From Agmasoma carcini (nom. nud.) (Eukaryota > Microsporidia > Thelohaniidae): a DNA stretch of 50,046 bases. Below are positions 33,597 through 49,190 of this stretch, piece after piece. The stretch covers positions 1-50,046 of the forward strand of contig JAOXFI010000028.1 in NCBI GenBank assembly GCA_029232285.1, given 5' to 3'. The number at the start of each line of letters is the position of its first letter. The stretch's first letter is position 1. Position numbers and translations under genes: made by a program. The notes below the pieces were generated by a model. It ran no database searches. It was not told the origin of the DNA and worked only from the letters and a program-made list of their open reading frames with translations.

Positions 33597-34135
33597 GGGT
33601 AGGTAATAAATTTTTCTTTAAATAGTACTTATGATTGATATATTATAAACAAGGAGTTGATATAGATATAAAATATTGTGTAAACAACCTTAATAAACGT
33701 TATTTATTGTTATTGTTGTTTCTTTTTTTAAATATTTCAATTATAATTGGCTAAAATCGAAATATTTTATGTAAAGGAGTTTAAAGATGTATTAGTTGTT
33801 ATGAGTGGTTATTATATGATGGTATTTGTTAGTCAATCGGGTTGGTTAGTCGGGTTAGTTAGTCGGGTTAGTTAGTCAAGCTAGTTAGTCAAGTTAGTTA
33901 GTCAAGTTAGTTAGTCAAGTTAGTTAGTCAAGTTAGTTAGTCAAGTTAGTTAGTCAAGTTAGTCAGTCATGTTAGTCATGTTAGTCATGTTAGTCATGTT
34001 AGTCATGTTAGTCATGTCAAGGTAAATCATGTCAAGGCTAATCATGTCAAGGTTACTTAGTCATAGTTTAACATTTTTATATCAAAATCTTAATAAAGGA
34101 TGAACATTCTATTATTTTTTAAATTTTTTATTATT
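33597..34135. other. Spacer containing a GTTAGTC array
   Basis: Downstream of the secreted protein gene and upstream of family member 3. The array at 33829-34070 is its main content. Confidence 0.5.
33829..34070. repeat. GTTAGTTAGTCAA minisatellite
   Basis: First GTTAGTTAGTCGG/GTTAGTTAGTCAA units of 13 bp, then a run of 9-bp GTTAGTCAT units, then GTCAAGG-type units, showing stepwise amplification of different periods. Confidence 0.92.
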
Positions 34136-37240: not shown

Positions 37241-37315
37241 TTGGGCAATTTTTTAAAAAATTTACATATTTACAAACAAAAAAATTAAAGTTACTTATGT
37301 TAGGATTAGTTACTT

Positions 37316-37396
37316 ATGGTAGTTAGTTAGTTAGTTAGTTAGACAGTTAGTTAGTTAGTTAGTTAGTTAGTTAGACAGTTAGTTAGTTAGTTAGAA
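37316..37396. repeat. GTTA tetranucleotide array
   Basis: GTTA units with two interruptions by GACA, 75-155 bp upstream of the SEC66-like start. Confidence 0.92.
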
Positions 37397-43967: not shown

Positions 43968-45671
43968 ATGATTAATTTTTTAGACATACTTATAAAGAAT
44001 GATATAGATGCTTATATATCACCAATCTCTGATAATCATCTTAGCGAATTTATATCTCAAAAGGATAACGTAGTTAGGCAGGTCTCACAGTTCACTGGCA
44101 CGAGTGGCACGCTAATACTCACCAAGAAAAAGAGTGGCTTATTAACTGATCCAAGATATTATGTACAATCAGGAAGAGAGCTAAATTTAGATTTTGAACT
44201 TATTAAACGAGAAGAGACCACAATTGATAAATATTTGGTATCAAATGACGTATCAAAGGTAGGATTAGACTATTCCTTATTTGAAAATAATGAATTTTTA
44301 GATCTTAAAGATACTTTAGAATCTAGAAATATTTCAGTTGTAAATATTAACTTAGTCGATGAACTATGGCCCGATAAAGAAGCATCAAGTCGTGATGGTG
44401 ATCTTACTGATTTAGAAAGCATTAAAATACAAAATATGGGCAATTTGATTTATCCTGGTAATTCTAGCGATAATATAACTGGATCGACAAGAAAAGATAA
44501 AATTTCAAAAATTATTAAAAAAATAAACAAAAAACCACTAATAGTAACCAAATTAGATACAATAGCATGGATATTAAACCATAGGGGTGTAGATATTGAT
44601 GATAATATGGTATTTTTTGCATATTTAATCATTGATAATGATGAAACAATATTATTTTCTGATCACACAGTTGATATCAAAGATATTACAATTAAAAAGT
44701 ATGATGAGTTCATTCCTTATCTGGAACGCAACAGTGATAAAGAATATCTTATTTCCGGTAAATATAATGCTTACATTGGTCAAATATTAAAAAACGTAAA
44801 ATCTATAGATGATATAGAGAATATGCAATCTATTAAAACAAATGCTGAAATATTTGGTGTTTTAAAGGCTAATGTAATGGATGGTATTAGTTTTCTTAAA
44901 TTATTTGAATATATTGAAGATAATACTGATTTAACAGAAAACGATATTTCAACCAAAATGGACGAGCTAAAGGCTGAAAATGAAGGTTTTATTAGGAGAA
45001 GCTTTAAAAATATAGTTGCTGCTGGTAAAAATGGTGGTGAAATACATCATTCCAATACATTTATTGAAATAAAGGACCAAGACACAATATTGATTGATTC
45101 AGGATCACATTATATATTTGGATCAACTGATATATCAAGAACGATTGCTAAAAAGCCAACACCTGAACAACGAAATAACTATACGAGTGTAGTTAAAGCT
45201 ATAATAGCCGCTAAAAAGTTAAATAATGATGAAATAACTGGTGATATGGTTGATTCAACAGCCAGGAAGGTTATAATGGAGGCTGGATATGATTATCCTA
45301 CTGCTACGGGTCATGGTGTTGGTATAATCGTTCATGAGCACCCACCCAGTATTACGAATGGTGGTGAAGTTATTGAACATAGTCAAATTTTAACTATAGA
45401 ACCAGGAATTTACATTGATAAGGAAATGGGAATAAGAATTGAAGATATGCAAGTATACAATAAAAACCATACAAAACAGCCAATAGTCAATCTTACATAC
45501 ATTCCTTTGCATCTTAAGCTTATAAATTCTGACTTATTAGAACAATCAGAAATTGAATTTATAAATGAATATCATAAAGTTGTTAATACATTACTTAGTT
45601 CACATGTGAAGGGTGGAACAGGGTCGAGATACTTAAGTGATAATACCACTGTATTGATGCAAGGAGATTAA
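43968..45671 (+). CDS. Xaa-Pro aminopeptidase P (M24B)
   Basis: Cytosolic metalloprotease that removes the N-terminal residue when proline is second. The 567 residues show the three-part eukaryotic APP layout: two creatinase-like N-terminal domains (about 1-155 and 160-290) and a pita-bread catalytic domain. All five metal ligands are present: Asp377 (LIDSG), Asp388 (STDISRT), His449 (TGHGVG), Glu478 (TIEPGIY) and Glu492 (RIEDM). The catalytic-region histidines in EIHHSN and VHEHPP are present too. I start at the ATG at 43968 (MINFLDILIK); the 10-codon extension to 43938 would need GTG. A C-terminal tail of about 20 residues (GGTGSRYLSDNTT) exceeds the family core. Likely role: recycling host-derived proline-containing peptides. 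Confidence 0.95.
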   Translation: MINFLDILIKNDIDAYISPISDNHLSEFISQKDNVVRQVSQFTGTSGTLILTKKKSGLLTDPRYYVQSGRELNLDFELIKREETTIDKYLVSNDVSKVGLDYSLFENNEFLDLKDTLESRNISVVNINLVDELWPDKEASSRDGDLTDLESIKIQNMGNLIYPGNSSDNITGSTRKDKISKIIKKINKKPLIVTKLDTIAWILNHRGVDIDDNMVFFAYLIIDNDETILFSDHTVDIKDITIKKYDEFIPYLERNSDKEYLISGKYNAYIGQILKNVKSIDDIENMQSIKTNAEIFGVLKANVMDGISFLKLFEYIEDNTDLTENDISTKMDELKAENEGFIRRSFKNIVAAGKNGGEIHHSNTFIEIKDQDTILIDSGSHYIFGSTDISRTIAKKPTPEQRNNYTSVVKAIIAAKKLNNDEITGDMVDSTARKVIMEAGYDYPTATGHGVGIIVHEHPPSITNGGEVIEHSQILTIEPGIYIDKEMGIRIEDMQVYNKNHTKQPIVNLTYIPLHLKLINSDLLEQSEIEFINEYHKVVNTLLSSHVKGGTGSRYLSDNTTVLMQGD

Positions 45672-47130: not shown

Positions 47131-47698
47131 TTATTTAGTCAGTTTAGATAGATAATTTAGTTAGTCAGTTAGTTAGTCAGTTAGTCAGGTTAGTCAGATA
47201 GTCAGTTAGTCAGATAGTCAGGTTAGTCAGATAGTCAGTTAGTCAGATAGTCAGTTAGTCAGGTTAGTCAGTTAGTCAGATAGTCAGTTAGTCAGGTTAG
47301 TCAGATAGTCAGTTAGTCAGTTAGTCAGGTTAGTCAGATAGTCAGTTAGTCAGTTAGTCAGATAGTCAGTTAGTCAGGTTAGTCAGATAGTCAGTTAGTC
47401 AGATAGTCAGGTTAGTCAGGTTAGTCAGGTTAGTCAGGTTAGTCAGTTAGTCAGATAGATAGTCAGTTAGTCAGTTAGTCAGTTAGTCAGTTAGTTAGTC
47501 AGTTAGTCAGTTAGTCAGTTAGTCAGTTTAGATAGATAATTTAGTTAGTCAGTTAGTTTAGTTAGTCAGTTTAGTTAGTTAGTCAGTTAGTTAGTTAGTT
47601 AGTTAGTCAGTTTAGTTAGTTAGTCAGTTAGTTAGTCAGTTAGTCAGTTAGTTAGTCAGTTAGTCAGTTAGTCAGTTAGTTAGTCAGTTAGTCAGTCA
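47131..47698. repeat. Large GTTA/GTCA/GATA array upstream of SPC1
   Basis: About 570 bp made almost entirely of GTTA, GTCA and GATA tetranucleotides in mixed order, with occasional GG (GTCAGGTTA). It starts right after the stop codon of the preceding gene and ends 54 bp before the SPC1 ATG, so any SPC1 promoter must lie within or just beyond it. Confidence 0.97.
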
Positions 47699-47752: not shown

Positions 47753-48004
47753 ATGGAGCAAATAAAAAATATTTTGGATCCAAACATTGACTTAGTAGCT
47801 CAGAAAACTTCTAGAACTTTAATGAGGAATATTCTTTTTTGTGGTTGTTTAATTTCTTTAATTGTTGGATTGTTAGTTAAAGATCTTAAATTAACAATGA
47901 TTGGTGGTATTATTTCTGGAATTGTTTCATTTATGGTATCTGTACCTGCATGGTCATTTTATAGGAAGAAAAGTGTAGTATTTAAGAAGCGAAAGGAGGA
48001 TTAA
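47753..48004 (+). CDS. SPC1: Signal peptidase complex subunit SPC1
   Basis: 83 residues, the size of the SPCS1/Spc12 family (about 95-100). A short cytosolic N-terminus (IDLVAQKTSRTL), two membrane helices (about 27-43 and 47-64) with a tiny lumenal loop, then the family's PxWxxYRR motif as PAWSFYRKK (65-73) and a basic cytosolic tail. Non-catalytic subunit of the ER signal peptidase, thought to help substrate selection. AAAAAATTTATCC directly precedes the ATG. Confidence 0.85.
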   Translation: MEQIKNILDPNIDLVAQKTSRTLMRNILFCGCLISLIVGLLVKDLKLTMIGGIISGIVSFMVSVPAWSFYRKKSVVFKKRKED

Positions 48005-48153: not shown

Positions 48154-49020
48154 ATGCTTCTTCTCTCAACACTCTGTTGTCTTGTTATAAGAAAGGAAAT
48201 AAGAGACATGACTGAAGAGGAATGGAGTGACTATAAAGGAGCTGTCATGGAATTGTACAAGCTTGGTTTTTTTGAGAATTTTTCTAGAATTCACACTTTT
48301 CATGATAAATATGCTCATAACAATGCAAGATTCTTGCCTTGGCACAGAATGTTTCTTGAAGAGTTTGAAGGATACGTTCAACAAATAACAAAATCAAACT
48401 TAGGCATTCCATATTGGGACTGGACCATTGATGCAGATGATCCTACAAATTCAGATATTTTAACTAAGTATTGGAAAGTGGAAGGTTGTTTAATTATGAA
48501 CTATCCTAACACACATTGCTTAGAAAGACTTAATGAAGTGGTAGGTTGGTCCAATAAAGCTCATATAGAAAGACTTGTTAATAAAAGATGCTCATATGAC
48601 TACTTTAGAGAACTATTAGAGTTAGTACCACACGCACTTGTACATTCTAACATTGGTGGTGATATGGCACAGATGTACTCACCTAATGATCCTTTATTTT
48701 GGCATCATCATTCTTTTGTTGATTATATATGGACCATGAGAGGTGAGAATTATTCTGGAAAGATTGATGGTAAGAAAATATCAAAGGATGATGTTATGCT
48801 ACCTTTTAATAGAAAAGTAAAGGATGTGTTAAAGCAAAAACATATAAAATATAAAGAATTTAAGAATAGAATATCGGTTCAAAATATATCACAAGTGCCA
48901 CCTTTACCTATTGAATTTATAAAAAGACATAATTATGATGAAAAAAGAATAAGAGAATTAGAAAGTTTTTTTAGTAAGGAAAGTTTTATAGAAAAATTTA
49001 AAAGGAAATTATTACAATAA
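48154..49020 (+). CDS. Secreted tyrosinase (type-3 copper protein)
   Basis: Tyrosinases oxidise mono- and diphenols to quinones, leading to melanin or protein cross-linking. The 288 residues start with a short hydrophobic segment (MLLLSTLCCLVI), probably a signal peptide. CuA ligands are His47 or His50, His55 and His64, in IHTFHDKYAH and FLPWHRMFLEEFE. The exact H-x8-H spacing between 55 and 64 is the tyrosinase pattern. IPYWDWT (85-91) follows. CuB ligands are His160 and His164 (PHALVH), then GGDM and DPLFWHHHSFVDYIW with the third ligand in His184-186. So the active site looks complete. The C-terminal third (about 200-288) is basic and lacks the lid domain of fungal tyrosinases, giving a bacterial-like size. 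Base composition is like its neighbours. It lies 149 bp after SPC1. Target and role are unknown; spore-wall hardening is one possibility. Confidence 0.9.
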   Translation: MLLLSTLCCLVIRKEIRDMTEEEWSDYKGAVMELYKLGFFENFSRIHTFHDKYAHNNARFLPWHRMFLEEFEGYVQQITKSNLGIPYWDWTIDADDPTNSDILTKYWKVEGCLIMNYPNTHCLERLNEVVGWSNKAHIERLVNKRCSYDYFRELLELVPHALVHSNIGGDMAQMYSPNDPLFWHHHSFVDYIWTMRGENYSGKIDGKKISKDDVMLPFNRKVKDVLKQKHIKYKEFKNRISVQNISQVPPLPIEFIKRHNYDEKRIRELESFFSKESFIEKFKRKLLQ

Positions 49021-49029
49021 AAAAATAGA

Positions 49030-49190
49030 TTATTTAATAGAATAATCATGTTTTTTTATATAAGAGAATAATCATATTTTTTATATAAGAGAATAATTTA
49101 TATTTATATAAGAGAATAATTTATATTTATATAAGAGAATAATTTTTATTTATATAATAGATTTTTTATATAAAAGAATAATCATATTAT
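49030..49190. repeat. TATATAAGAGAATAAT tandem repeat 3' of the tyrosinase gene
   Basis: Several units of about 24-32 bp with the core TTTATATAAGAGAATAAT, some ending in CAT. A shorter relative (ATAAAAGAATAATCAT) follows SPO11. Confidence 0.85.

Follow-up and report, generated by a model that had tools for sequence, protein, structure and literature searches.

Phenol oxidases cross-link walls and cuticles. The type-3 copper enzymes with solved structures include bacterial tyrosinases that consist of the core only, such as those of Priestia megaterium (TyrBm, 3NM8/3NPY) and Streptomyces castaneoglobisporus (1WX2), and short ascomycete enzymes, here the catechol oxidase of Aspergillus oryzae (4J3P) and the polyphenol oxidase of Thermothelomyces thermophila (6Z1S). 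As a further case, we describe a 288-residue protein of the Pfam Tyrosinase family that is encoded on contig JAOXFI010000028.1 of assembly GCA_029232285.1, deposited as Agmasoma carcini (nom. nud.). The coding sequence lies at 48154..49020 of the window, that is, the whole stretch of 50,046 nucleotides that was analysed; all genes and protein features given below with positions of the window are on its forward (+) strand. Although microsporidia are known to have lost many genes, a copper phenol oxidase persists in many of them. The protein adds a member to an established family and belongs to a widespread microsporidian clade for which no study was found; among the papers listed by searches of the open full-text literature (judged by titles and the starts of abstracts, with subscription journals and supplements outside their scope) none is about a microsporidian tyrosinase, and none was listed for Rozella together with tyrosinase.

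Gene, copper site and fold

The original prediction, made from the DNA letters, described a secreted, apparently intact tyrosinase in a microsporidian. The translation of 48154-49020 has no internal stop, and Pfam assigns its product to PF00264 (E 1.2e-29; 104.6 bits against a cut-off of 22.6). The stop-to-stop frame around it spans 303 codons, and about 1e-8 such frames are expected by chance in the six frames of 50 kb with the base composition of the window. Codon log-odds, trained on the 12 other open reading frames (ORFs) of the window, give 71 bits in frame, as against 26 and 32 bits in the shifted frames and 5 bits on the reverse strand. These two results rule out a chance ORF. One tyrosinase copy was found in the 4.26 Mb assembly, which rules out a family of paralogues in this genome. 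From the family profile, the relatives, the tree and a structure model, the product is a real, intact and probably secreted protein of the type-3 copper phenol oxidases, a biochemical class that we assign with high confidence.

The predicted copper site can be read from the alignment. The CuA ligands are H47 (HisA1, 48292..48294), H55 (HisA2, 48316..48318) and H64 (HisA3), and the CuB ligands are H160 (HisB1), H164 (HisB2) and H186 (HisB3). All six are present, as had been predicted for the di-copper site, and the predicted sequence blocks are likewise found in the translation: FLPWHR at residues 60-65 (48331..48348), which contains H64, and PYWDW at residues 86-90 (48409..48423). A run of three histidines, HHH, follows at residues 184-186 (48703..48711). 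In the 38 rows of the microsporidian clade described below, H47 is found in 37, and the 38th row is truncated; the same counts apply to Tyr53, two residues before HisA2. Because the residue at this position is Tyr, a Cys-His thioether of the C-x-H type is excluded at HisA2, and the protein thus lacks the thioether of typical eukaryotic tyrosinases (as described in PMC10526336).

Further marker residues bear on activity. A Glu of the waterkeeper type, E156 (48619..48621), is present in 38/38 rows and sits four residues ahead of HisB1, as in the tyrosinase of V. spinosum (vsTyr), where PMC10526336 names Glu254 and Asn259. The segment 48631..48645 holds HisB1, the activity-controller position A161 and HisB2. 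At HisB1+1 the 38 rows have 36 Ala and 2 Gly rather than the Asn or Asp of usual monophenolases. Ala is not decisive, since a table in PMC10526336 lists it for apple tyrosinase as well; still, because of it, we regard the protein as no more than a possible monophenolase (true tyrosinase, EC 1.14.18.1). A161 is consistent with catechol oxidase or o-aminophenol oxidase activity in which monophenols are not hydroxylated. The description ‘intact tyrosinase’ is thus borne out for the open frame and the complete set of copper ligands, but not for the residue typical of monophenolases.

Within the HHH run, H184 is an extra histidine specific to the clade, H185 a conserved seventh histidine and H186 the ligand; H185 and H186 are assigned by analogy with H283 and H284 of vsTyr (PMC10526336). 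His at position 184 occurs in 34/38 microsporidian rows (it is missing from Dictyocoela and Pseudoloma, which have Leu or Val in its place, and from two rows without a name), as against 0/13 rows like Rozella and 0/104 other rows. Two cysteines, C112 (48487..48489) and C122 (48517..48519), are predicted to form a disulfide because they covary in presence and absence: both occur in 136 of 155 rows, neither in 18 and a single one in 1, a signal that is inflated by kinship among the rows. Inside the microsporidia, loss of the pair is confined to a single group of three related rows; thus the covariation rests mainly on the other rows, a point that weakens the prediction.

The N-terminus MLLLSTLCCLVI (residues 1-12, 48154..48189) is a putative short signal peptide, judged by hydropathy. 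Its best 8-residue Kyte-Doolittle mean, 2.48, is higher than in any of 540 internal segments of 20 residues taken from the clade; the predicted local distance difference test (pLDDT) score averages 61 over residues 1-10 of the structure model. A length-matched comparison covered the 34 of 38 rows that begin with Met and have 8 or more residues ahead of the core; of these, 27/34 have a hydrophobic stretch in their first 20 residues above the 99th percentile of the same 540 segments. The other 7/34 lack one (6/34 if up to 60 residues are allowed), which speaks against secretion; in some of these the start is perhaps wrongly annotated. For the present protein, the hydropathy values suggest that secretion is probable, in line with the predicted signal-like N-terminus.

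Sequence and model agree on the core fold of the type-3 copper family, a four-helix bundle with the histidine set of CuA and CuB intact. Superposition on bacterial tyrosinases ends near residue 237. The rest of the chain (residues 238-288, 48865..49017), delimited by model, superposition and alignment, is an extension with an LPxxxIxxHxY motif and no hydrophobic tail. It is well modelled at residues 251-270 (pLDDT 97-98), and its H259 is found in 35/38 clade rows, with a gap in the other 3. The prediction of a compact 288-residue form without a C-terminal lid therefore stands in that a large separate lid domain is absent; the protein is not a bare core, since about 50 residues continue beyond the part shared with bacteria, and its compactness is a trait of the clade. 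As a point against our reading, the aligned range of structure matches to plant, mushroom and hemocyanin proteins reaches residues 269-288, and the extension may match part of those proteins.

Relatives across microsporidia and descent of the clade

Matches were gathered with a single-sequence protein search (best 120 of 3621 matches inspected) and with a 33-sequence profile (best 120 of 5696 matches inspected). Among the matches listed, 38 rows, including the present gene, make up the microsporidian clade. At least 14 named microsporidia carry a homologue: Enteropsectra breve, Vairimorpha necatrix, V. bombi and V. apis, Hamiltosporidium magnivora, Gurleya vavrai, Astathelohania contejeani, Conglomerata obtusa, Binucleata daphniae, Edhazardia aedis, Nematocida parisii, Dictyocoela muelleri, Vavraia culicis and Pseudoloma neurophilia. 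The remaining rows, one with a bacterial name and 22 without an organism name, were placed by the tree. Six of the 14 named members (E. breve, V. necatrix, H. magnivora, N. parisii, A. contejeani and D. muelleri) have ‘tyrosinase’ in their National Center for Biotechnology Information (NCBI) name, and all six fall in the same clade as the present gene. Contrary to what the original prediction had implied, the gene is thus not special to its genome, and an unusual find in a single genome is ruled out by these relatives. The protein of Enteropsectra breve has 52% identity with ours.

No tyrosinase from Encephalitozoon, Ordospora, Vittaforma, Glugoides or Hepatospora is among the best 120 matches of either search. 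Proteins of all five are present in the database, as matches to a search with an aminopeptidase P show. Because only the best 120 were inspected and matching needs common short words, these absences are good, not final, evidence.

Several rows are of interest in themselves. The partial tyrosinase P0029, labelled as a metagenome-assembled genome of Lactobacillaceae, falls together with Vairimorpha apis in two trees (100/100 and 100/98) and probably represents a piece of microsporidian DNA that ended up in a bacterial bin. The tyrosinase of V. apis itself (P0009) is called ‘kunitz protease inhibitor 1’ in NCBI and UniRef and is apparently misnamed. Two Pseudoloma-type proteins, P0125 and P0126, have 550-598 residues, the added length lying ahead of CuA, in the part that joins CuA to CuB, and after CuB (the last above all in P0126).

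Two trees were built from 79 and 73 of the 155 sequences; the smaller set omits the long-branched rows P0085, P0097 and P0105 as well as P0039, P0060 and P0088. The microsporidian rows form one clade in both, with support of 98/92 in the 79-row tree and 100/100 in the 73-row tree, which rules out a recent horizontal gain. In the 73-row tree the present gene is sister to E. breve plus P0002 (100/98). The same tree sets the microsporidia together with 13 rows like Rozella and Mitosporidium on one side of a 100/96 branch. This group, defined after inspection of the 79-row tree, comprises the two named rows Rozella allomycis and Mitosporidium daphniae (P0055 and P0077) and 11 unnamed relatives, and it supplies the nearest rows outside the microsporidia. 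R. allomycis is also the best row from outside the clade in the profile search.

Trees and nearest outgroup agree, and we therefore favour old vertical inheritance from fungus-like ancestors, but do not regard it as proven, because the approximately unbiased (AU) test fails to reject an alternative. In that alternative the clade would stem from a single early acquisition from another fungal lineage, for example the insect-pathogenic Entomophthorales. A tree that joins the microsporidia to four Entomophthorales rows is not rejected (p 0.114), although it is 33.9 log-likelihood units worse than the unconstrained 73-row tree; Basidiobolus ranks above Rozella in the single-sequence search; and in the 79-row tree the neighbour of the clade is P0085, unnamed and long-branched, with weak support (94/52). 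Set against the 100/96 branch and the profile ranking, these three points weigh against simple descent but leave such an acquisition improbable. The part of the original prediction that spoke of retention is accordingly better supported. As a separate observation on the 73-row tree, two short tyrosinases of Streptomyces join a row from Conidiobolus (99/98); this may reflect gene transfer between fungus and actinomycete or a mislabelled contig.

The 13 rows like Rozella share the six histidines and the cysteine pair (13/13), and the four that were inspected (P0055, P0077, P0043 and P0127) have a C-terminal motif similar to the microsporidian one. They differ from the microsporidian clade in the tail as well as at position 184. 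A strongly hydrophobic tail (15-residue hydropathy of at least 2.1) is present in 7/13, as opposed to 0/38 microsporidian rows, where the maximum is 1.32; in six of the 38 the chain stops less than 90 residues past HisB3, so that some of them may be incomplete. The hydrophobic tails of the Rozella-like rows resemble those of membrane- or glycosylphosphatidylinositol-anchored proteins.

The contig itself can be assigned by a neighbouring gene. An Xaa-Pro aminopeptidase (aminopeptidase P, family M24; 43968..45671), identified with Pfam and a protein search, lies about 2.5 kb upstream of the tyrosinase, and its best named matches are Enteropsectra breve, Pancytospora epiphaga, Vittaforma corneae and Encephalitozoon. 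Because of these matches and of two TLC-type nucleotide transporters in the assembly, we assign the contig to a microsporidian, as the original prediction had it, and to one near Enteropsectra and Pancytospora; the same evidence rules out contamination. The Rfam model of microsporidian small-subunit ribosomal RNA (rRNA) has no match in the assembly, which counts against this assignment, although we attribute it to rRNA that is missing from the assembly or withheld.

Candidate copper supply, proposed role and surroundings of the gene

The genome offers a candidate source of copper for the enzyme. One gene with an HMA region and a P-type ATPase is found, on contig C20 (L013:1069-3228); its 719-residue ORF has a CxxC metal-binding region, a CPC membrane motif, DKTGTLT and GDGxND, which we take to be the marks of a copper-transporting P1B-type ATPase. 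The best matches among solved structures in the Protein Data Bank (PDB) are copper-transporting ATPases, and the protein scores above the cut-off of TIGR01494, the model for P-type ATPases in general (146.9 against 62.3). Several results stand against a copper pump: the protein scores 172 bits with the NCBIfam copper model TIGR01511, below its cut-off of 397; it is also below the NCBIfam heavy-metal cut-off; and the HMA region, which has 27.6 bits in the genome search against a Pfam cut-off of 24.8, falls below it when the whole protein is searched (22.7). Nor was a Ctr copper importer found in a genome search, for which the control genomes were prokaryotic, so that a divergent Ctr was possibly missed. 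The ATPase also carries an in-frame run of NHSYKEGD-type repeats, which follows its phosphorylation site and precedes GDGxND. Genome searches for a multicopper oxidase, Cu/Zn superoxide dismutase and copper amine oxidase found none, and the tyrosinase is therefore the only candidate client of the pump among the families tested. Most simply, these findings can be read as a pump that supplies copper to a secreted cuproenzyme.

On this basis the following course of events can be proposed. The enzyme would enter the endoplasmic reticulum and, within the secretory pathway, receive its copper from the candidate P1B ATPase, a step that has a genomic basis. Outside the parasite membrane it would generate quinones, either from o-diphenols or from tyrosyl groups and small phenols. 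During sporulation the quinones would most likely create cross-links in the spore envelope or the polar tube, with proteins or chitin as their targets. The substrate, the timing and the role in the envelope are what we infer. Tanning of the spore envelope is favoured because secretion is probable, a tail anchor is missing, the carriers live in hosts of very different immunity and phenol oxidases are known for cross-linking. The hosts are insects, crustaceans, nematodes (Nematocida and Enteropsectra) and fish (Pseudoloma). Taken whole, the reading of the protein as a type-3 copper phenol oxidase that was inherited vertically, is secreted and has a role in the spore envelope is one that we put forward tentatively, at somewhat less than an even chance.

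A fuller version, which we consider possible but doubtful, holds that an ancient, self-contained copper oxidation system, the secreted phenol oxidase and its secretory copper pump, tans the envelope; that the enzymes are a distinct subfamily of type-3 copper proteins in which H184, an eighth histidine beside the CuB ligand, tunes the site; that the enzyme came off the cell surface when an ancestral C-terminal anchor was lost; and that Encephalitozoon, Vittaforma and similar lineages have since lost the gene itself. Three observations sit badly with the envelope role or with this version of it. Encephalitozoon, Ordospora and Vittaforma are absent among the listed matches, although an enzyme that hardens the wall should resist loss; no paper listed in the open literature searches connects the spore wall of microsporidia with phenol oxidase activity; and residue 184 requires at least three changes on the tree. 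If envelope hardening is confirmed, it would bear on how microsporidian spores become so resistant and account for a copper pump kept by a microsporidian, and the chemistry of the spore wall would become a testable enzyme question.

Other uses of the enzyme can be weighed against the same observations. The original prediction also raised interference with arthropod melanization: released into host tissue, the enzyme would compete for phenols, or divert or prematurely consume the substrates of the phenoloxidase cascade. Probable secretion agrees with this, as does the presumed predominance of insect and crustacean hosts among the named carriers. The gene is nevertheless also present in Nematocida, Enteropsectra and Pseudoloma, with their presumed nematode and fish hosts; Glugoides and Hepatospora, which we take to be crustacean parasites, are not among the listed matches (draft genomes make this absence weak); and an enzyme that forms quinones would, if anything, promote melanin. 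The suggestion thus fits poorly, and we consider it rather unlikely, and less likely than tanning of the spore envelope.

About equally unlikely is an oxidase that modifies small molecules or peptides (similar to o-aminophenol oxidase, or acting on tyrosine as in fungal pathways for ribosomally synthesized and post-translationally modified peptides) or that detoxifies host phenols. Microsporidia have little secondary metabolism, and no biosynthetic cluster was seen around the gene: the closest neighbours that could be named encode a signal peptidase subunit, eIF6 and the M24 peptidase. The least probable reading is that there is no oxidase use at all, and that the protein is a relic that binds oxygen or copper, or the gene weakly expressed. 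Its patchy occurrence among the listed microsporidian matches could be read in this way, but the six ligands and the waterkeeper Glu are kept over long branches, 29 columns are invariant in the 33-row alignment, the ORF is uninterrupted and the candidate copper pump is retained.

The immediate surroundings of the gene are rich in tandem repeats. The upstream neighbour, at 47753..48004, encodes the SPC12-type subunit of the signal peptidase complex (PF06645, E 7.7e-16) and is given for context only; just upstream of it is a (TTAGTCAG)n array of about 67 copies (47157-47698). Further arrays rich in TAGT or GTCA are located at 1910-2066, 33841-34014 and 37289-37394. A 23-bp A+T-rich array (49030-49161) begins about 10 bases past the stop codon of the tyrosinase, and a 22-bp array of a different kind is found at the end of the contig (49892-50046).

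Comparison with bacterial and ascomycete enzymes

Returning to the solved structures, the present protein differs from the bacterial core-only tyrosinases in having the extra H184 and the C-terminal extension of about 50 residues; no caddie partner was identified for it, although no search aimed at one was made. At HisB1+1 it has Ala, whereas TyrBm and the Streptomyces enzyme have Asn (in the latter case read from the title of an N191G mutant structure). With the short ascomycete enzymes it shares 25-26% identity, and the solved chains of these are longer (371 residues in 4J3P and 381 in 6Z1S, compared with 288 here).
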